From assembly GCA_024181965.1 (NCBI GenBank), contig BQXS01012585.1, forward strand, positions 1-36,956: DNA of 36,956 nucleotides. Direction: 5' to 3'. The translations under genes and the position numbers were made by a program. The stretch is from Aduncisulcus paluster (Eukaryota; Fornicata). Below are positions 413-18,295 of the stretch, piece after piece. The first letter of the stretch is position 1, and each line of letters begins with the position of its first letter. A model generated the notes under the pieces. The model did not search any database, had not been told where the DNA came from, and saw only the letters and a program-made list of their open reading frames with translations.

Positions 413-2872
413 TTAACCGTCATCTTCTATACTCTGAATCTCATTCTGAGATTCATCAGACAAAGAACTAGAGGAATCAGATGAGGTTGATTTAGGTATA
501 AGCGGGAAAAAATCATCAATACTGCCTTGATTTTTCTGAGAATGACATAACTTATGTGAAGACTTACCAACTGCTGTAATAGAGTGCTCTTTGTCTTGGG
601 ATTCCTTCTCAACACTCACAGACTGAGAGATCTCAGACTGTTTTTTCAAGGGACCAGATTGGAGCTCATCATGAGAACTTCTCATCTTTCCTGCTTCTTT
701 ACGTCTTGGAATTTTTTCCCTTGTTTTCCGCCCCTTCACTGGATTAATCGTAGTCCAATGATATTTCAGAGTACAATAAAGTGCAGCATTTTCATTTGTG
801 AGTCTTGAACGTTGAGGGGTCAGAATAAGTCCATAAGCAGAGAAAAATCTTTCCACTTCGGCCCCAGACAGAGAAATAGTAAGTAGAGGCTCCACAAATT
901 TGAATGCAATATCATGATTTTTCCAATAGTTGTAATATTTCTCTCTCTTTTCATCAATGTTCAATTGTGAGAAATCAAGAACATCTTCTTGAGCATAACA
1001 ATGGAGTTGATACTTAAGGTTCGCATTGCTAAGGCCATCCATTCGGTTATTGTAGTCATATTTCTTCAAAATAGCAAGCAGTTGTTTTACATTCTTTCTT
1101 GGAGAGTGGTCCGGCAAAAATTCCACCACATCTTTGTACAAATCCAAAGCTTTTTTAATATTTGCCTCTCTCTTCGCATAATTTGGGGGAATAGAATACC
1201 TATTCTTTCGCATCTCATCAATACTGAAAAGGAGACAATCAATATCTTTGATTGCAAAATCGACTTCTCTTCCCTGTACACAAATAACAGCTCTTCCAAG
1301 ATTAGTAAAGAAAGGCGCCATTTTTTCCAATTTTTTCCTATTACCCTCTGAAAACAAATTTTCCACGACATATTTTTTTTCCTCCTCATCTTTTATATAT
1401 GTTTCACAAAACAACCGATAATTTAGCCATTTAGCAAGAATGTGGAGAGTGCAGTCGACATTTTCCACCCACCGGGTCATACACTTGGTTACAGATTTAA
1501 TTTGATATTTGGTTAACTGATTTTTGTGATGCATCTGTGCTAAAGATATCTTTGTAATGAGCTCCGAAATGAACCGATTCTCTTTAAGTTTCATAAAATC
1601 ACCCAATAACAAATCTAATTGATGTGCAAGACACCAAACATGGTTGATAACTAATGGTGCCACCGTATCCAGTGGGTCTATTGACTCCTTTGATTTATAC
1701 TCTTGTAGCCTTTTTCCCACATTCAACATCAGAGCTTCCCCATCAGTAATAATGAATCCAGGTGCAAATGAATATTCCTCTATTAATTTAGTAAGTTTAT
1801 CAGCTATTTTATCAGCTAGTATTCTTCCTTTCTTTTGTTTATCCTTATCCTCTTTATCATTTTGAGATTCCTTTTTTCTAGAATCCTCTTCAGCTGAGGA
1901 TTTAACAAGTTTCTCCAGCTCAGATCGATTATCCCAATATTTTAAAAATAAACTCTCAAGACTCATCCCCATTGAACAAGCTTTCTTTTGATACAACGAC
2001 AACTTTTTCTCGTCCTTATCAAGAACTCTAATTTGCCGTTCAATTGCACTTTTCCTTTTGTTTGACTCCTCGATCATTCTCTCAACATTTATGATATTGT
2101 CATTATACTGCTTTCTTGTTATTTTCGTTAAAGTTATTTCTTTCTCATCCTCTAGTCTTTTCTTTTCCTCTTCAGGGCTCTCTTGAGCCAGAGAGGCAAG
2201 AAGGTCAGGATCCAATTTTTCTTCTTCGGGAAGAATATGCGCCAATTTCCTATACTCTTGCTTGGCATTAACACCAATGATTGGTAACATGCCACATCTG
2301 TATTTAGAACCTTTATCAATGATGAAACTAACACATTGTCCCTCCCACTCTCGACACAAATCATCCTCTTGTTTTTCTATCAATCTTTTTGCTGTCGTTT
2401 CTACTATCCTTCTTGTTACAATATTCCCAGTTCCTGCTTGATACATTAAAGATTGAAACTCTGGTGTCAAAATCTTACTGATCATCAGAGGAGAAAGTCC
2501 TAACCCAAGTAAATAGCCTATACACCCATCTTTAGCATCGGAAGGAGATATTTCCCCCGTCTCAATACATTCATCAATGGTTTTCTGCTCCTGACAAGCG
2601 TCATATTTCGAAAGGTGTTGCTCTGACTTGAGATGAGAACATAATTTCTTTACAGTCCTCTCGATCCGGCAATGACAACATTTACATTGCAAATAATACC
2701 GTTTTTTTAATTTACCAGATATTTGCTTTGTTTCTGTGATGGGTTCTGTCCAATCAAAACTGCAATCAAAATTCTCTTCAAATTTCTCCTTATCTTCAAA
2801 TTTTTCTTTACCCTTTTCATCAAAAGAATCCCAAACGTTTTGTAAAAAGTAAATTTTGTTACAATCACCCAT
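413..2872 (-). CDS. hAT-family transposase with C-terminal PIP-box
   Basis: An intact 819-residue transposase that should cut and paste its own element. The ATG at 2872 is chosen because further upstream the frame has only a TTG start and runs into the terminal repeats. Residues 63-86 form a BED-like zinc finger (paired Cys, then H80 and H86). D186 (in IIDKGS) and D377 (in ITDGEA) are candidate RNase H-fold aspartates. The CLAHQL motif at 414-419 is the usual hAT C-x2-H, and the C-terminal dimerisation block (about 660-708, SGAEVERFFSAYG) holds candidate glutamates E672 and E674. Between D186 and D377 lies an unusually long charged, coiled-coil-like stretch (about 215-360). The tail is basic then serine/acid-rich and contains QGSIDDFF (782-789), a PIP-box. 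There is no frameshift or internal stop, so the gene may be functional. Confidence 0.88.
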   Translation of the reverse strand: MGDCNKIYFLQNVWDSFDEKGKEKFEDKEKFEENFDCSFDWTEPITETKQISGKLKKRYYLQCKCCHCRIERTVKKLCSHLKSEQHLSKYDACQEQKTIDECIETGEISPSDAKDGCIGYLLGLGLSPLMISKILTPEFQSLMYQAGTGNIVTRRIVETTAKRLIEKQEDDLCREWEGQCVSFIIDKGSKYRCGMLPIIGVNAKQEYRKLAHILPEEEKLDPDLLASLAQESPEEEKKRLEDEKEITLTKITRKQYNDNIINVERMIEESNKRKSAIERQIRVLDKDEKKLSLYQKKACSMGMSLESLFLKYWDNRSELEKLVKSSAEEDSRKKESQNDKEDKDKQKKGRILADKIADKLTKLIEEYSFAPGFIITDGEALMLNVGKRLQEYKSKESIDPLDTVAPLVINHVWCLAHQLDLLLGDFMKLKENRFISELITKISLAQMHHKNQLTKYQIKSVTKCMTRWVENVDCTLHILAKWLNYRLFCETYIKDEEEKKYVVENLFSEGNRKKLEKMAPFFTNLGRAVICVQGREVDFAIKDIDCLLFSIDEMRKNRYSIPPNYAKREANIKKALDLYKDVVEFLPDHSPRKNVKQLLAILKKYDYNNRMDGLSNANLKYQLHCYAQEDVLDFSQLNIDEKREKYYNYWKNHDIAFKFVEPLLTISLSGAEVERFFSAYGLILTPQRSRLTNENAALYCTLKYHWTTINPVKGRKTREKIPRRKEAGKMRSSHDELQSGPLKKQSEISQSVSVEKESQDKEHSITAVGKSSHKLCHSQKNQGSIDDFFPLIPKSTSSDSSSSLSDESQNEIQSIEDDG

Positions 2873-2952
2873 AATTATTGCGAAACGATGCAAAAAAAAG
2901 AGATTCAAATCACGAAATTTGTGGAGTTTATTTTCAAAAAAAAACGCAAAAT

Positions 2953-3023
2953 GCAGCCACTTGGCAGCCAATTGCAGCCAAATTTCTCGTTGGCAGCCAG
3001 CGGCTGCAAGATGTACATCCCTG
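2953..3023. repeat. hAT right terminus: inverted-repeat end and subterminal GCAGCC repeats
   Basis: The terminal CAGGGATGTACAT (read on the minus strand) occupies 3011-3023. Four direct GCAGCC copies and one inverted GGCTGC follow inward. The last pair (2993-3007, GCAGCC-AGC-GGCTGC) forms a perfect short hairpin. Subterminal arrays of this kind bind hAT transposases through the BED finger in known systems; that role is inferred here. Confidence 0.7.
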
Positions 3024-3073
3024 ATTTTCAATCCATATTGTGTTTTTTTTTTGTCGGATTGGAAGGGTATTCA

Positions 3074-9308: not shown

Positions 9309-10388
9309 TTATTTCCATGGAAGTAGAGATAATCGTTCACCTGCAATGGTTTCCTTGGGCATAGTAAATACAAGGGAGAGGATGCAGAAATTTCGACTAT
9401 TCTTCCCATTCCACCTTCCTTTCCCTTCAATCTCACACAATACAACGTTATCCAAATCAATAGGAAGGAAATACCATTCAAATTGATGTTTAGGTTGTGT
9501 GAATTCATACTTCTTGCATGTCTTCTTATCATCACAATCTGTGAAAGTGAAGAGAAGATGAGGTGAACTACGATACCTATCCACACAGATATAAGCACCT
9601 TTCATTAGACTGGGTGATGGGAAAGGGATAGAAAGATGGGATAAAGCGACACCACATTCCCCTTTTAACATTGCTTGTGCTGCTGAACTCTGATCATACC
9701 ACTTAGATTCCTTACAAAGCGAATCATTCTTGCACTTAACCATTGAGAATGAAGGATCCACAAGCTTTGGATCATCACGTGGAATGGGAATAGAATCTTT
9801 ATCTCCTTTCTTAACAAACTCTGGTTTCACAACTGAAGCTTCAGCCCATAGTTTCTCTTTGGCTTCACGAGCTATAGTTTCTTCAGGGGTTTCTTTTCTA
9901 ATGAAAACAAGAGAGATGATTTTAAAATACTCTTTCTCTCTTCCTTTCCCTGTAATCTCACACAGAACAACATCAGGGAGATCAACAGGAAGGAAATACC
10001 AATGCCAACCTTTAAATCCATGAAATTCGTATTTCTTCGACGTTTTCTCACCCTTTGAAGATGTGAGAGTGAAGATAAGATGTGATGGAGGGTAATAATA
10101 CAAAAGACAGATATAGACACCTTTCATTGGGGAAGATGAAGAGAAAGGAATGGAGATATGGGTAAAATGCCCTGCATCGCCCTCTCCTTTCATCATATCT
10201 TGTGCTTTAGAACTCTGATCGTACTCTTCATCACCTTCTTCCTCGGTTCCATCTATTGCTTTGATAGTTGGAAACTCTGCACTCTTAATATTAGGGGCAT
10301 CTCCAGGAATTGGACAGCAATAGGCATATCCTTCATGAACAAACACAGGCTCCACAGTTTGAATAACAGCATCTGTGGATAAACTCAT
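9309..10388 (-). CDS. Two-module protein of a probable lineage-expanded family
   Basis: An intact 359-residue protein with ATG at 10388. It consists of two copies of a module of roughly 150 residues (about 25-170 and 200-345). Each copy reads YDQSS.AQ.M.KGE, then an IPF.S.S.MKG.YIC strand pair, HL.FT.T, K..KKYEF, WYFLP.DL..VVLCEI.GKGR and a SLVF strand. The alternating hydrophobic strands suggest a beta-sandwich, but I know no function. I recall similar modules in many Aduncisulcus paluster proteins, some fused to kinase-like domains; this is unverified. The linker KETPEETIAREAKEKLW follows module 1, whereas module 2 ends abruptly in KETIAGERLSLLPWK, so this copy may be truncated relative to longer members. 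No signal peptide is present. Confidence 0.75.
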   Translation of the reverse strand: MSLSTDAVIQTVEPVFVHEGYAYCCPIPGDAPNIKSAEFPTIKAIDGTEEEGDEEYDQSSKAQDMMKGEGDAGHFTHISIPFSSSSPMKGVYICLLYYYPPSHLIFTLTSSKGEKTSKKYEFHGFKGWHWYFLPVDLPDVVLCEITGKGREKEYFKIISLVFIRKETPEETIAREAKEKLWAEASVVKPEFVKKGDKDSIPIPRDDPKLVDPSFSMVKCKNDSLCKESKWYDQSSAAQAMLKGECGVALSHLSIPFPSPSLMKGAYICVDRYRSSPHLLFTFTDCDDKKTCKKYEFTQPKHQFEWYFLPIDLDNVVLCEIEGKGRWNGKNSRNFCILSLVFTMPKETIAGERLSLLPWK

Positions 10389-10965: not shown

Positions 10966-13900
10966 TCATAACAACACAGCTCCTTCAATGTACGCATGTG
11001 TGATATAGCCAACATATACTATTGACACTTGCATATTGAAAGAAAGGGTCTTTACACAACTGCCGAAAGCATAAACGCATTTATCCATAACGCAATCAAG
11101 AATTCCGCTGTTCGAGATAATTCTAACAATTTCAGCAGCATCGATGGTCGGCAGGAAAAACGGTCTTCCATACCATAGACACTGTAAAGGTACAAGGGAC
11201 ATGAGTTCATAATGATATGGATGGAGCGCTTCACAGGGAAATTGCATTCCACGGCCAAGAGAACTATTCGCAACGGCCTCACAAATAGCTGGTGTGGCAA
11301 TATTTTGGAGGTATTTACACAAAGGAGCATGGAATTTCATTTTGGGCTGAAACACCATGTTTTGACGGTATGATACCATCAACTTGGTAAGCGAATGTGA
11401 CAACGCACGACTCAGTTCTCTATCTGTCGTTGTCATGAAATATGATCGCTTTTGGAGAGCAAATGAGGGAGGACACCACCAATAAAAAGGAGATGAGAGT
11501 GGAAGAATACCTCCAGAGCACTTATTTTGCATCCCTCGTCCAACTCGATTCCGATGCATGTTCTCGTATTTCTTTGTGGCATCAGTGAGCGACCTAATGA
11601 TTTGATTTGGATATCCGAGTAACCAGTCATTCAGATCATCAACGTCGAATCGGATCTCACCGATCAAATCATATTTCTGACGATTGACATACACTTGCTT
11701 ATGATTAAACAAACATCCAACACGCTTGAAGGGGAATTGGGGACTGTGAGTGTTGATAAAGGGCAAACCAATGTCCAAATGCCAATGAAGAACTTCACAG
11801 GAGGAAGACAACGTTAAGGAAGGAGCTTCTTTCGCAGGGGTTGTCACAACACGGCCAACAACCGTCCGGCGGAAGTTTCGAAGTTCGGTTGACGCCTGTA
11901 AATATGCCGTACGAATGTCATGGAAAGGAAGTCCAGAAAACAGAGATTTGTCAGACCGTACACCGTGGAGATCGCCGGAAGATGTGTTTGCTGCCAACTG
12001 TTTTGACTTACGAGGACTCAAATGGAATGCAAATTCACCGATATTTCCACTCAAATCAAGCCGTTTCACTTCACTGATTTCACTATCATCATCCGAATCC
12101 TCGAGATCGTGTCCCCCATGTCTTGAACGTATTTTCCCATGCTTGGACACACCTCCTTTCCCTCGCATATGCTTAATGCACGAAGCCCTCCCCTTCTCGA
12201 AGTCTTCCCATCCGTACCCAATCCTCATGCCACCTTTCCCATCCACAATCTCCTTCATGTGTCTCATATTGATGGAATATTCGGATATATACGTGAGNNN
12301 NNNNNNNNNNNNNNNNNCTGTTTTGACTTACGAGGACTCAAATGGAATGCAAATTCACCGATATTTCCACTCAAATCAAGCCGTTTCACTTCACTGATTT
12401 CACTATCATCATCCGAATCCTCGAGATCGTGTCCCCCATGTCTTGAACGTATTTTCCCATGCTTGGACACACCTCCTTTCCCTCGCATATGCTTAATGCA
12501 CGAAGCCCTCCCCTTCTCGAAGTCTTCCCATCCGTACCCAATCCTCATGCCACCTTTCCCATCCACAATCTCCTTCATGTGTCTCATATTGATGGAATAT
12601 TCGGATATATACGTGAGATAGGACAACATAAACGTGGGGTCAGAGCTTACAACAGATGGACGCGAGGCAGCAAGAGGGAAAGGGGAAGTAATGAAACACA
12701 TTCGACGCCAGACCTTATCATTGGGAAAAGTAACGCTTGACATACGTCTTAAAGCTGGTAACCGTTCAGTACGAGTCATCGGGAACGAACGGATATCGAT
12801 CTGGGTCTTTGCAATTCCGTTGCGTTGACCTGATGATAACTGTCCTGGTTTAGGAAGAACCAAATCTTTAAACCCAGAACCAGAAACACCATCGAGCATC
12901 ATACCTCCTGATCTATTTATAGAACCTCCTGATCTATTTATAGAACCTGCGGCATCAGGAATAACCCCGGCAGAGGAAGTCGTTGTCAGAGGCAGGGATT
13001 GATGATGAAGATCGGTGTCTGTTGTTAGAGAACTGTCCATGACAACTGTGGGATTGGAAGTAAGGGGTTGTTCAGATGTACCGGCAGAAGTACCGGCAGA
13101 AGTACCGGCAGAAGTACCGGCAGAAGTACCGGCAGAAGTACCGGTAGGATCTGTCGATGATGATGGAGGGATACCATTCATCGTATTGCGTTCCAATTCT
13201 TTTAATCTCTCTTTCTCTTCAGCCATAATGGTTTGGAATGGAGACATCATCTTTGCTGAGGCAGCATTAGGTAATTGCAATGATTTCTTTGGTTGTTTTT
13301 CTTCGCCTTCTTTTTTATAATCTCTTCTTTCTGCATCTTTCTTGCGCTGTTTACGTGATTTTTTCGAGGCAGAAGCATCGCCCCCAGATTCTCCAGTTTT
13401 CCGATGAAACACAGCTCTTTGCAAATGACTCGGCAAAAAAGATTCTTCAATCTCCAATATTTCTTCCCGTGGTCTATGAATATTTTTTTGCCACCCGCCT
13501 TCATCCTCATCATCTCTCTTATCGAAATTACTCAATTCCTCAGAGATGGAGGAGAGTTCTTCCTTCGAACGGGGCGGCTGGAGCAAAGCAGGTTTCTTGA
13601 TGGGTTTTGAATGTTTATGCATCGAGTAAGCCTGTAATTCTTCTTCTCCCAATGAAGCATCGATTGTAGATATTTTACCGCCCTTTTTCCTTTCCCATTC
13701 TTTCTGTTTTCTTCTGTAGCGACCTCTAAGGAGATGTCCACCGCCACAGACAGCTCCTTTATATAAAAGACACCCATCAATACACTCTCCCATCTCACTT
13801 TTCATCGATTTCTTGCTTCGATGACGAGTAACAACCCAGCAAGTTGGCTTATTGTTAGAATCGTGACCCAAAGCGACGTAAGCGTCTATTCCAAAACCTA

Positions 13901-16499
13901 AGAACAAAGAACACAGTGTGCATGCCTTTTCAAGCGCATGTCCACGTTTCCGAGCAAAAATGCTCATAGGCGATGAAATCTGCAGGGAAGGGGGTGGAAT
14001 GGATTCGTGAGGAGCATAAGGAAATTCATCGTGGTTGCGAATTAATCGCATAATAAATGCAGCCTCCATTGGGGAAGATAGGGAGGAAACTACAGGTCTG
14101 ACAAAAGCACAGGCAGGCCGAAAGACCCCAAACTCATCACACAACACGAGACAGAAATTCCTCCGTTTCAAAGTATGGCGGAATTGTCTCATATTCTTGT
14201 TATATACCCTGAACAGAGACTGCATTTCTTGTCTCTTTTCCATCAGAGCATGACTCAGCGAGGAAGTGGATCCTGAGTTTGAAATTGTACCAGCCGAGTG
14301 GGAGGTCTGGAGGGTTGGCACAAGAGGACTTGAACCGTAAACAATCTCACCTGAAGGAACAGGATCGATCTTTGCAAACATTGGACTGTGTTCTCTAATT
14401 GCTTCTCGAAATTCAAGCCTTTCCTGCTGTTTTTGGACCATAATTTCGGATTTCTTTTGTAAAGATTCCCTGACAAATTCAATGGGGGACTTGGAGTGTT
14501 TGGATCGCGATTTGGGAAGGTATTCTACAAATGGATTTGAACTTTTAGGTTTGCGAGCTTGTTCTTGAAACAATTCTTCCTCTTTTGTAAGCTCACTCTC
14601 ACCCTTTTCATATTTATAATCTTTAGGAATGGCGGAACTTTTCAATGGAGTGTACGTAGGAAATTCAATTGTCCCTGAGAAGTCTTGATGCTGAGTTGGA
14701 AGATCAGATTGAAGAGCACTATCATCATGACGGCCAGAGGCGGTACCAACACTTCCCCCGCCGGCAGAACCACCGGCAGAACCTCCGGCTCCAGATGAGT
14801 TCAGAGGAGGAGCGTGAGATGATCCTTTCAAAGCAGTGAGAGATGTTGATACGACACTTGAATCTGATTCGGTCACATCAATGGTATTTTCTATCTTTGA
14901 CAACGAAGATGAAGTGATTATTTTATCGATTGAAGCTCCAGATCCTCTTCTTTGTGCTTTTAGATGCCCATGTTTGTTACTTTTCCCCTTTTTCCCTTTC
15001 TTCCCTTTGCCTCCCTTATGACTGTTTTTACCCGTATCTTTGGCTCCTTTTGATCCTGATAATGACGACCCCACAGTTTCATCTTCACTATTAACAGGGA
15101 GATCAAAGCTCAAAATTGGATGGCCTTGACTATCCACAAAACTGTCTCCGTGGTGTTCACCATCAAAACCATGTTTCCTTGTTTCCTTGTCTTGGACAAC
15201 ACGCATCCACTCGTCAATGGAGATTTTGTGATCAATATGGAGGGTACTGTTTCGTTGCGAGGTGGCCAGTTCACGACGTCTTGCCGTGTTGATGCCGCCT
15301 AACTCATCAAGGGATCCATACATCGATGATAACGAGTGCATTAGAGGTGGATTGCGTTGTTTCTTTCTTCTTTTGAGCTCTTTCTCTCTCTCAAGAGCAA
15401 CCTGACTGTCAATCGAGTGGACTAAATGTTGAGCAATGTTGAAATCGGTCTCAATCTTCTTTCTATGCCTCTCGAAGAAAATATCTTGATCAAAACAGGT
15501 CCAGCAAGCAACGTTAGTATTGCTGCAACGGACAGAAACTTCCATAACGACGTCTGCACATCCATATGGCAACAAAAATGGAGAAGTCAGGAACATGGTG
15601 TGCGTTGACGTGTGGGGAGCATGGGCCAAAGCAGATAAAAGCGGTAAATGACAAGTTCCAATGAGTTCGCTGAAGGCACCAGAGGAGGTCGAGATAAGAT
15701 CATGCACAGAGATGTTCAAATATTGCGATTGCAGCCATATCATCAAGTCACTCACGTTGTCCGTGGGGAAATGAACTCTCATCTTCGAAGTTAAGCGAGG
15801 GAAAATCAGATTGGCATGACGAGCCTGGACATCGCGAATGACAGGCGTTTGAGTACGGGTGTATCCACAAGAAAGCCGGAAAAAGGGACTAATTTTACCC
15901 ATACTAATTCCAGACAATGGCATATATTTAGGTCTGCAGAAAAAGTTCAAGTTACCAACACTTTGAATCGTAACAACCAAATCAGTCCCACAAAACCCAT
16001 TTGGATCTAAAACACTCTTTTCTTTATCGTTCACATCATCATATAGTTTCTGGGCTTCAGAGAATTTGGATAAAAAGCCTTGGACTGTTAGGCTTTCGGT
16101 ACCCTTTGGGAAAAAATGCTTTAGTGTCGAGTTCACATCTTGGATTTGGAACCCTGTTTTACCTGTTTGTAAAATCCTGGCGAAAGTTTCTTCATCAAGC
16201 GCCCGGCCATATTTCTTCTTGAAATGGTCAAAAGCTCTGCGTGCTGCATCTCTCTTACCTTCGAGTATTTTTTCATAGTCTCCAATGAAAACAAGAAAGT
16301 CTTCAAAATCAAGACGAAAATCTCCATGCCTATCGTACATTTTAACATAAGTTTGAGCCTGTTCATGAGTTTCAAAGGGTCCAAAGAATGGTAACAATCT
16401 AAAGAGATCTGCCGCACCAATTTTACCATCACTTGAGGTTGTAAATTGCCGAAAAATCTCTTTAAACGAGCGAACCTGAAATTCTGATAAATGAGACAT
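10966..16499 (-). CDS. CEP76: CEP76-like ciliary protein (EF-hand, C2, transglutaminase-like); split by a false gap
   Basis: This is one gene. The part 16499-12318 continues in frame at 11997 once the duplicated 300 bp and the 20 N are collapsed; the joined length is 1738 codons including the stop. Residues about 10-75 resemble an EF-hand pair, and about 170-330 form a C2 domain. Residues about 850-895 hold the transglutaminase-like motif of CEP76/CC2D2A (LCSLFLGFGIDAYVALG, then CWVVTR). After a long Ser/Lys-rich insert the domain resumes near residue 1480 with HWHLDIGLPF and RVGCLFNHKQVYVN, close to human CEP76. CEP76 acts at centrioles, and the family belongs to cilia. Human CEP76 is only about 660 residues and lacks the EF-hands, so a CC2D2A-type relative is possible. 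The inserts contain TSAG and GSINRSG repeats. No intron is evident. Confidence 0.72.
11998..12617. other. False gap: 300-bp contig overlap left unmerged around 20 N
   Basis: Bases 11998-12297 are repeated exactly at 12318-12617 with 20 N between them (12298-12317). Removing one copy and the N run restores a continuous reading frame through the CEP76-like gene. This shows a scaffolding artefact, not a repeat or a real gap. Confidence 0.95.
12904..12945. repeat. Two tandem 21-bp units in coding sequence
   Basis: Two identical 21-bp units encode GSINRSG twice in the low-complexity insert of the CEP76-like protein. Confidence 0.9.
13078..13144. repeat. 12-bp minisatellite in coding sequence
   Basis: Five perfect copies of GTACCGGCAGAA plus a partial sixth encode a run of T-S-A-G tetrapeptides in the CEP76-like protein. 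The perfection suggests recent expansion and likely length polymorphism. Confidence 0.92.
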
Positions 16500-17275: not shown

Positions 17276-17317
17276 ATTTGTGTCCAAAACACTGATTTAT
17301 TGAGAGATGAATTTTTT

Positions 17318-17340
17318 TTGCGACTATGTCGCACTGCGAC
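17318..17340. repeat. Left inverted terminus of the Fanzor-like element
   Basis: It is composed of GCGAC TAT GTCGC ACT GCGAC. The arms are mutually complementary, so it can fold as a hairpin as well as pair with the right terminus. Confidence 0.65.
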
Positions 17341-17762
17341 CTTTTCAATATTCTAAAAACGTTAAAATTAATATCCTGTGATACCCTTATTCATTTATTA
17401 TTTTTTTATTTTTATCTGCTTGCTTAATAGCAAACTTGATGAATCCAAAATTCTTACACGCGGGAATGTGTATATTTACAATAGATCCATATCATGAGAA
17501 GATATCTCTCAGTAAATCTTCAGTTTTATCGCCAATTCCAAAAATAAATAATGTCTGGGGAGTGATTTTGGTTGGAGGCGAAGATACGCAACTCTAACAG
17601 AACTCTAAAAACCATTCTCTCTTGCTTCCATGGTCATAGCACCATTTCATATGATCGTAAAGAGCACATATCATTGGATTTTTGGGATAGAAATGCAAGG
17701 ATAATAGATACACGAGATGAGCCCACGGATCGAACTCCAAGGTCATTTCTAGAATGCCCTGA

Positions 17763-18146
17763 GATGCCGGGGAAGGCTATAAAAAGGCCTTTTCAGCTAC
17801 AGGAAAAGGACATCCAGCAACACCCGCAGTAAGAAAGGTTCCAAGAATAATGTCACATGTTGTAAAGAATATGGGTGGGATATTTATCAAAGTTGACGAA
17901 TATCACACTTCCAAATTATGTCCATGTTGTTACCAAAAACTTAGTACGATGAATCCGAAAACTCGTTTGAGAAAGTGTCCTGGTTGTCACCATGAAGGCC
18001 ACCGTGATTCTTTAGCTGCATTAAATATTGCTAATCTTGGTTATTATGAGTTTCTAGGTATCCCAAGACCTCCAGAATTTTGTTATTCCCAAGATCTTCA
18101 TCATCCTCGGCCACATCCAAGACAAAGACTTTCCTCTGGATTATAA
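17763..18146 (+). pseudogene. TnpB/Fanzor C-terminal fragment: RuvC-III plus zinc ribbon
   Basis: The frame is open from after a TGA at 17760. It holds the region before the zinc ribbon (F.ATGKGHPATP), then KVDEYHTSKLCPCC, a second CPGC pair, and HEGHRDSLAALNIANLG. This is the OrfB zinc-ribbon signature shared by IS200/IS605 TnpB and eukaryotic Fanzor proteins: DE..TS..C..C, C..C, then the RuvC-III aspartate in RD..AALNI. All four ribbon cysteines and the RuvC-III Asp are present. Upstream, RuvC-I and RuvC-II are not found in this frame. A weak IDP match in another frame near 17480-17500 (TIDPYHEKISLS) might be a ruined RuvC-I. The gene therefore looks dead, with the conserved 3' end surviving. 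The 3' tail continues past the family motif to a TAA at 18144-18146. Confidence 0.8.
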
Positions 18147-18225
18147 TTCTATTTTACCAATTTTACTATTTTTACTCACCGCGTGTTTTCACGATGGTGC
18201 AATTTGAACAATCTTTTTGCATGCT

Positions 18226-18247
18226 GTCGCTTTGCGACGCATCGCAA
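18226..18247. repeat. Right inverted terminus of the Fanzor-like element
   Basis: It reads GTCGC TTT GCGAC GCA TCGCAA. Its reverse complement matches the left terminus apart from the trinucleotide spacers and a one-base indel. Confidence 0.65.
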
Positions 18248-18295
18248 ATTGAATTTGTTCTTTATTGAGATAACTATAGATATTAAGAAAGTCTT

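Follow-up and report, generated by a model that had tools for sequence, protein, structure and literature searches.

A 955-bp element within the 36,956-nucleotide stretch of Aduncisulcus paluster DNA analysed here (contig BQXS01012585.1 of assembly GCA_024181965.1; hereafter the window) is, with high probability, a non-autonomous, 'ghost'-like derivative of a Mutator-type DNA transposon carrying Fanzor1. Rather than being a simple remnant, it is chimeric, combining a deletion with a captured piece of a host gene, and such host-gene capture is the most unusual trait of the Fanzor elements of this organism. The interpretation draws on the profile match of a truncated frame, on the DPG, TDG, Ealt (alternative RuvC-II glutamate) and Bao-Jurka patterns in the fuller sequences P0001 and C357, on sharp ends with duplications, on a mosaic structure with its donor gene, on the sense-strand folds of the right end, on a dN/dS of 0.26, on a MULE match and on proximity to the starts of open reading frames (ORFs). 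It is weakened by the absence of a transposase from the copies, the lack of a duplication at C81 and of a clear one at C370, antisense folds, a motif spacing of 177 and a CTDGC cysteine pair. A. paluster is a free-living single-celled relative of Giardia, and Fanzor is a eukaryotic relative of CRISPR nucleases. This reading places a family of Fanzor1-type nucleases among the Fornicata, which are anaerobic protists.

Ends, sister copies and mosaic interior of the element

The features of the element and its borders are as follows (positions in the window, strand, description).

17296..17305, no strand: left target-site duplication TTTATTGAGA (9 or 10 bp), exact copy at 18261-18270
17306..18260, +: whole element, 955 bp, with ends common to sister copies
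17306..17340, +: left terminal inverted repeat, imperfect, with GTCGCACTGCGAC
17306..17428, +: left-end module of about 123 bp (element 1-123), common to copies with differing interiors
17429..17760, -: captured, decayed host RRM gene fragment, antisense to Fanzor (element 124-455), matching C161:2117-2444 with 93.4% identity across 332 bp
17763..18146, +: Fanzor frame reduced to its C-terminal 127 codons, with PF07282 match; 92% identical to P0001 residues 431-559
17898..17900, +: Ealt codon, six residues ahead of the zinc ribbon (as defined in PMC10711439)
17919..17987, +: zinc ribbon, CPCC ... CPGC
18006..18008, +: RuvC-III aspartate codon (HRD)
18177..18199, +: hairpin 1 of the 3' module, found in six of the seven right ends folded and altered in C203
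18206..18260, +: terminal hairpin that closes on the final base of the element, possibly an omegaRNA scaffold, and that includes the right terminal inverted repeat
18226..18260, +: right terminal inverted repeat
18261..18270, no strand: right target-site duplication TTTATTGAGA, exact copy of 17296-17305

The inverted termini claimed in the first-pass annotation are real, though imperfect, but sister copies and the duplicated TTTATTGAGA set the ends at 17306 and 18260 and not at 17318 and 18247. DNA searches were run against 7.09 Mb of the organism's own genome in 397 contigs, with the best candidates scored, so that copy counts are lower bounds (the published assembly comprises 29.4 Mb at 39.1% GC; PMC9933649). 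The whole element returned 17 match rows including itself. The left end returned eight matches and the right end likewise eight, the window copy being included in both; seven of the right-end matches extend to the element end and that on C266 is internal.

Both ends are retained in six copies: C326 (the window copy), C137, C350, C81, C370 and C203. Target-site duplications of MULE or Mutator elements measure 9-11 bp, and duplications in this range flank four of the six, the direct repeats being exact over 10 bp in the window copy and over 9 bp in C137, C350 and C203 (T-rich in C203, whose right end lies one base off the blast match). No duplication was found at C81 and no clear one at C370. 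One-ended copies (C196 and C303, left end only; C357, right end only) fall outside this count. All six two-ended copies lie on the 5' side of an ORF of at least 100 codons that starts no more than 300 bp away, a proximity seen at 42% of the intergenic positions of the fetched sequence (34% for ORFs of at least 150 codons); the window element starts 31 bp upstream of the start of an ORF with an RNase_PH domain. The size of the duplications, the inverted ends and the insertion on the 5' side of genes are together consistent with a Mutator-type element, a type already described for Fanzor1s of fungi.

No transposase was seen within any element copy. The 7.09 Mb searched gave one match to a MULE transposase (PF10551, E 7.4e-7; L063, contig C39, 17267-17560), within an 809-codon open frame, the C-terminal part of which is presumably SWIM-like. 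This frame possibly represents an active MULE; as a partner of the Fanzor element it gained no support, since no ends related to those of the element were found in the 3.3-kb stretch searched.

The interior of the window copy is composite. Comparison with sister copies assigns element positions 456-955 to the 3' part of Fanzor and the 3' module, preceded by the RRM fragment. The stretch of C161 that matches this fragment falls within a 303-aa ORF (C161:2012-2923, minus strand) with a Pfam RRM_1 match (E 1.2e-6), and the fragment in the window is interrupted by in-frame stops; by sequence comparison, the gene on C161 is its intact donor. The possibility that C161 holds a further copy of the element was ruled out, as it does not appear in the matches to the left or the right end and holds the RRM ORF. 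A host-gene fragment enclosed between the ends, with its donor still present, is the hallmark of Pack-MULE-like gene capture, and the RRM fragment with its donor on C161 conforms to it. The initial reading as a Fanzor remnant holds for 17763-18146 but had overlooked the antisense RRM piece at 17429-17760.

The RRM capture recurs at different lengths in C137 and C196. In C350, 31 bp of it are retained, followed by a 1.5-kb piece related to a repeat-protein gene family (at least 84 match rows in 7 Mb including itself, several per contig, with the best 40 of 87 candidates scored). The best other rows among the matches listed for this piece reach 85-86% over 290 bp, and its exact donor was not found among the 40 of 87 candidates scored. 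The left edge of the RRM piece is common to four copies, which suggests a single capture followed by internal replacement, as would occur in gap repair with template switching. Microhomology at the junctions, judged by eye, followed no clear pattern. C81 and C370 have an interior that is common to both and differs from the RRM and Fanzor interiors; as no open frame of 90 codons was present at four of its 14 listed match places, a gene origin for it is without support.

Elsewhere in the window, a further member of the repeat-protein family represented in C350 lies at 9309-10388 (minus strand). An 872-aa frame at 413-3031 (minus strand) with a hAT dimerisation domain (PF05699, E 1.4e-5) constitutes a second transposon-like gene. 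In the frames at 10966-12267 and 12264-16499 (minus strand), the sequence that ends the 1411-aa frame recurs at the start of the 433-aa frame (MRHMKEIVDGKGG...), next to residues printed X, and this recurrence is either a duplication or an assembly artefact.

Fanzor frames in the window copy and its relatives

The open frame at 17763-18146 (plus strand; translation KVDEYHTSKLCPCC...CPGCHHEGHRDSLAALNI) contains VDEYHTSKLCPCC, then CPGC and then HRDSLAALNI. It matches Pfam PF07282 (Cas12f1-like_TNB; called OrfB_Zn_ribbon in PMC10711439) with 49.8 bits and E 4e-13 against a cut-off of 26.3, and NCBIfam guided_TnpB with 49.9 bits and E 2.8e-13, the cut-off of 100 for the latter not being reached because it applies to a whole protein and the frame is a fragment. 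The motif E-x6-CxxC-x(12-18)-CxxC-x(4-8)-D was found a single time across all six frames of the window and never in 200 first-order Markov simulations of it. The first-pass annotation of a Fanzor remnant with zinc ribbon and RuvC-III aspartate was therefore borne out, as was the OrfB_Zn_ribbon profile match that it had proposed for this frame. Nevertheless, the window copy, as read from its sequence, cannot produce a nuclease: everything ahead of the RuvC-II/zinc-ribbon part is missing.

Fuller copies with RuvC-I, which the same annotation had anticipated, do exist in the form of C357 (a frame of 489 open codons that includes VDPG and runs off the start of the contig) and the database protein P0001 (ADUPG1_012987, 559 aa, 93% identical to C357), but no copy with both ends and a complete Fanzor gene was found in the 7.09 Mb searched. 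P0001 itself is absent from the 397 contigs, where C357 is its best match at 93%. The partial protein P0005 starts 71 residues ahead of the P0001 start, so the natural protein may be longer than 559 aa. PF07282 scores are 45.2 bits for C357 and 37.7 bits for P0001.

Seven sequences were tested for the catalytic motifs. The full Ealt-zinc finger pattern is present in four (the window copy, C350, C357 and P0001); the C363 remnant has the Ealt glutamate with the first cysteine replaced, and the Ealt region is absent from P0002 and P0003. DPG at RuvC-I likewise occurs in four (P0001, P0002, P0003 and C357), the region being missing from the window, C350 and C363 frames. P0001 and C357 match the pattern D-X(125,275)-[TS][TS]xx-C4-X(5,50)-RD of Bao and Jurka, applied as a loosened regular expression; the match was printed from the TDG aspartate, and with the DPG aspartate as the starting point X amounts to 182 in P0001. 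DPG and Ealt lie 177 apart in both proteins, a spacing that falls outside the 120-160 of the TnpB pattern published in PMC10711439 and inside the 125-275 of Bao and Jurka. TDG stands at position 242 of P0001, 227 of P0002 and 173 of C357, its placement in the WED domain being putative; P0001 has a second TDG at 503, within the zinc finger, and its second cysteine pair reads CTDGC, with an extra residue, in place of the CPGC of the others. The combination of DPG and Ealt has been described as a Fanzor fingerprint, and TDG as characteristic of Fanzor1 (PMC10711439). By these motifs, some members of the family have a Fanzor frame with DPG, Ealt, the zinc ribbon and the RuvC-III aspartate.

C357 and C350 differ by 11 synonymous and 11 nonsynonymous changes over 486 bases (dN/dS 0.26, P 0.003), so the fuller copies look selected at the protein level. 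The pairs that involve the window copy (dN/dS 0.50 and 0.35) do not reject neutrality (P 0.18 and 0.12), and this copy is thus uninformative.

Among the best candidates scored, five proteins are significant relatives, all of them hypothetical proteins of A. paluster, in keeping with the fornicate-like genome that had been proposed from the window; the base composition is likewise similar to that of A. paluster. The protein is highly diverged: no significant relative outside A. paluster was found among the candidates scored (8000 and 7999 sharing most words; 1439), a search of limited sensitivity; two further matches with TnpB domains (E 0.72 and 2.1) are the sole non-Aduncisulcus relatives listed. 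A search of solved structures by sequence gave nothing significant: a synaptotagmin-like protein (E 0.14) and a FYVE domain (0.15) headed the list, and the non-significant rows also included the mimivirus TnpB-like L79 (E 0.16), Cas12f (0.24-0.64) and IS605 TnpB chains (0.34-0.68).

Divergent sequences were also encountered. C363 (L034 1278-1538, minus strand) represents another remnant that resembles Fanzor (EYRTSKL...RDVSAAMNIA), divergent and with a substitution at one cysteine of the zinc ribbon. P0003 (ADUPG1_012409) combines its own DPG-type RuvC-I stretch with a 39-aa piece 85% identical to the A. paluster Fanzor, and possibly represents another Fanzor subfamily or a chimera.

The 3' module, a proposed mechanism and competing explanations

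The last 84 bases of the element are predicted to form two hairpins, the second of which closes on the element end. The stretch 18147-18260 folds at -33.7 kcal/mol (z -6.03), and none of 200 shuffles was as good. Across seven right ends (100 shuffles each), sense-strand folds range from -26.8 to -34.5 kcal/mol (z -2.3 to -6.1), compared with -8.1 to -17.0 kcal/mol (z -0.8 to -4.1) in 12 folds of the left end, taken from six copies on both strands. In the C203 right end, 2 of 100 shuffles folded equally well. The last element base is paired in six of the seven right ends and unpaired in C370. In C81, the left end (z -4.1) equals the right end (-3.9) in structure for its composition, and for the window copy the left end, folded as antisense, gave z -2.5 and -3.13 in two tests. 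The antisense right end folds nearly as well as the sense strand (z -4.0 in C326 and -5.7 in C357), as would be expected of a DNA-level terminal repeat. The right ends are too alike for covariation, and Rfam gave no match in the window at the gathering threshold. In published Fanzor1 reRNAs, the predicted stem scaffold includes the inverted repeat and the duplication and runs about 15 nt past the latter (PMC10711439). The anatomy of the 3' module fits an omegaRNA scaffold, a role that is putative here; antisense folding and the lack of covariation leave room for a pure DNA-end role.

In the mechanism regarded as most likely, a transposase acting in trans would move the elements, and transcription of the 3' hairpin module would yield an omegaRNA with a guide part taken from the DNA to the right of the element, so that each right end would direct cleavage to its own insertion site. 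Fanzor from the fuller copies would then use this guide to cut the vacated or unoccupied allele, and repair after the cut would keep, restore or copy the element. The window copy, without a nuclease, could take part only as guide donor and substrate. A bolder extension, which we regard as rather unlikely, holds that metamonad Fanzor elements gave rise to live, guide-only, gene-capturing satellites, supplying omegaRNA and ends without protein, moved by MULEs, maintained by Fanzor in trans and reshuffling host fragments (here an RNA-binding domain) in front of genes. The gene-carrying derivatives make two ideas testable, namely that Fanzor-assisted maintenance feeds gene shuffling and that ghost elements serve as guide donors.

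The RNA step is also what separates the preferred reading from its most serious competitor, with which it otherwise overlaps: a plain, decayed MULE-type derivative, in which the hairpin serves solely as the inverted repeat bound by the transposase, the Fanzor part no longer functions and guide RNA is not produced. This competitor has a substantial chance of being correct, though somewhat short of even, given that the right end folds well on both strands, that C81, C370 and C203 keep both ends despite non-Fanzor interiors and that the window copy carries no sign of constraint. However, the sense right end is lower in energy in all six copies with both ends folded and lower in z in five of the six (the exception being C81), hairpin 1 lies outside the inverted repeat yet is kept in six of seven right ends, and the omegaRNA region is conserved in the ghost elements described in PMC10432273.

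The identity of the protein can be questioned as well. A bacterial TnpB acquired recently, a Fanzor2 of the IS607 type or one that a eukaryotic transposon has captured (Fanzor2*) would agree with the match of the zinc ribbon to TnpB models and with the TnpB-domain proteins being the only outside relatives listed (E 0.72 and 2.1). Inverted repeats and duplications do not exclude Fanzor2*, because PMC10711439 describes them for Fanzor2*s, and the probability of a protein other than Fanzor1 was raised slightly on this account. It is nevertheless improbable, as the TDG motif described for Fanzor1 is present, DPG plus Ealt argue against an ordinary TnpB, and the inverted repeats and duplications argue against IS607 (PMC3627910). 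An unrelated host zinc-ribbon gene, with which a short frame containing a zinc ribbon would be compatible, is of negligible probability and was ruled out by profile matches, that to PF07282 exceeding its cut-off, and by the position of the frame within a repeated element with ends and duplications. A non-autonomous derivative of a Fanzor1-carrying Mutator-type element thus remains the best explanation.

Comparison with known systems

Fanzor1, its MuDr association and ghost copies have all been published (PMC3627910, PMC10432273, PMC10711439). In the main texts of the open literature, no report of Fanzor in metamonads or Fornicata was found; nor was one that joins Fanzor with Pack-MULE or Mutator-like elements. 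To the extent of these searches, novelty lies in the metamonad host, in a lineage for which no relatives were detected and in the capture of host genes by derivatives of a Fanzor element.

Plant Pack-MULEs are MULE-type elements with host gene fragments; relative to them, the A. paluster elements add a Fanzor part and a protist host. Spizellomyces SpuFz1 and its 'ghost' loci (PMC10432273) share with them the inverted ends and the Fanzor-less copies that retain the ends and the right-end region. Unlike SpuFz1, the A. paluster elements are known from sequence alone, and no full two-ended element was present in the 7.09 Mb searched. The host-gene fragments in the A. paluster copies may be set against the further genes, including Gypsy/Ty3, described within 11 Fz loci (PMC10432273). 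The SfAV Fanzor1 element (PMC10711439) is similarly non-autonomous, with Fanzor as its sole gene and predicted right-end RNA stems that include the inverted repeat; unlike the A. paluster element, it sits in an insect virus and its reRNA has been sequenced.

Close parallels are also found in the MuDr-like Fanzor1 elements of fungi, for which Bao and Jurka (2013, PMC3627910) described 9-bp duplications and the absence of a transposase. As in the mucoromycete elements ROr-4, PBl-3 and MCi-4 of that work, a Fanzor1-type pattern is combined in A. paluster with inverted repeats, 9-bp duplications and the lack of an encoded transposase. In contrast to these fungal elements, those of A. paluster have no significant outside relative among the candidates scored, reside in a fornicate and carry host-gene fragments in some of their copies.
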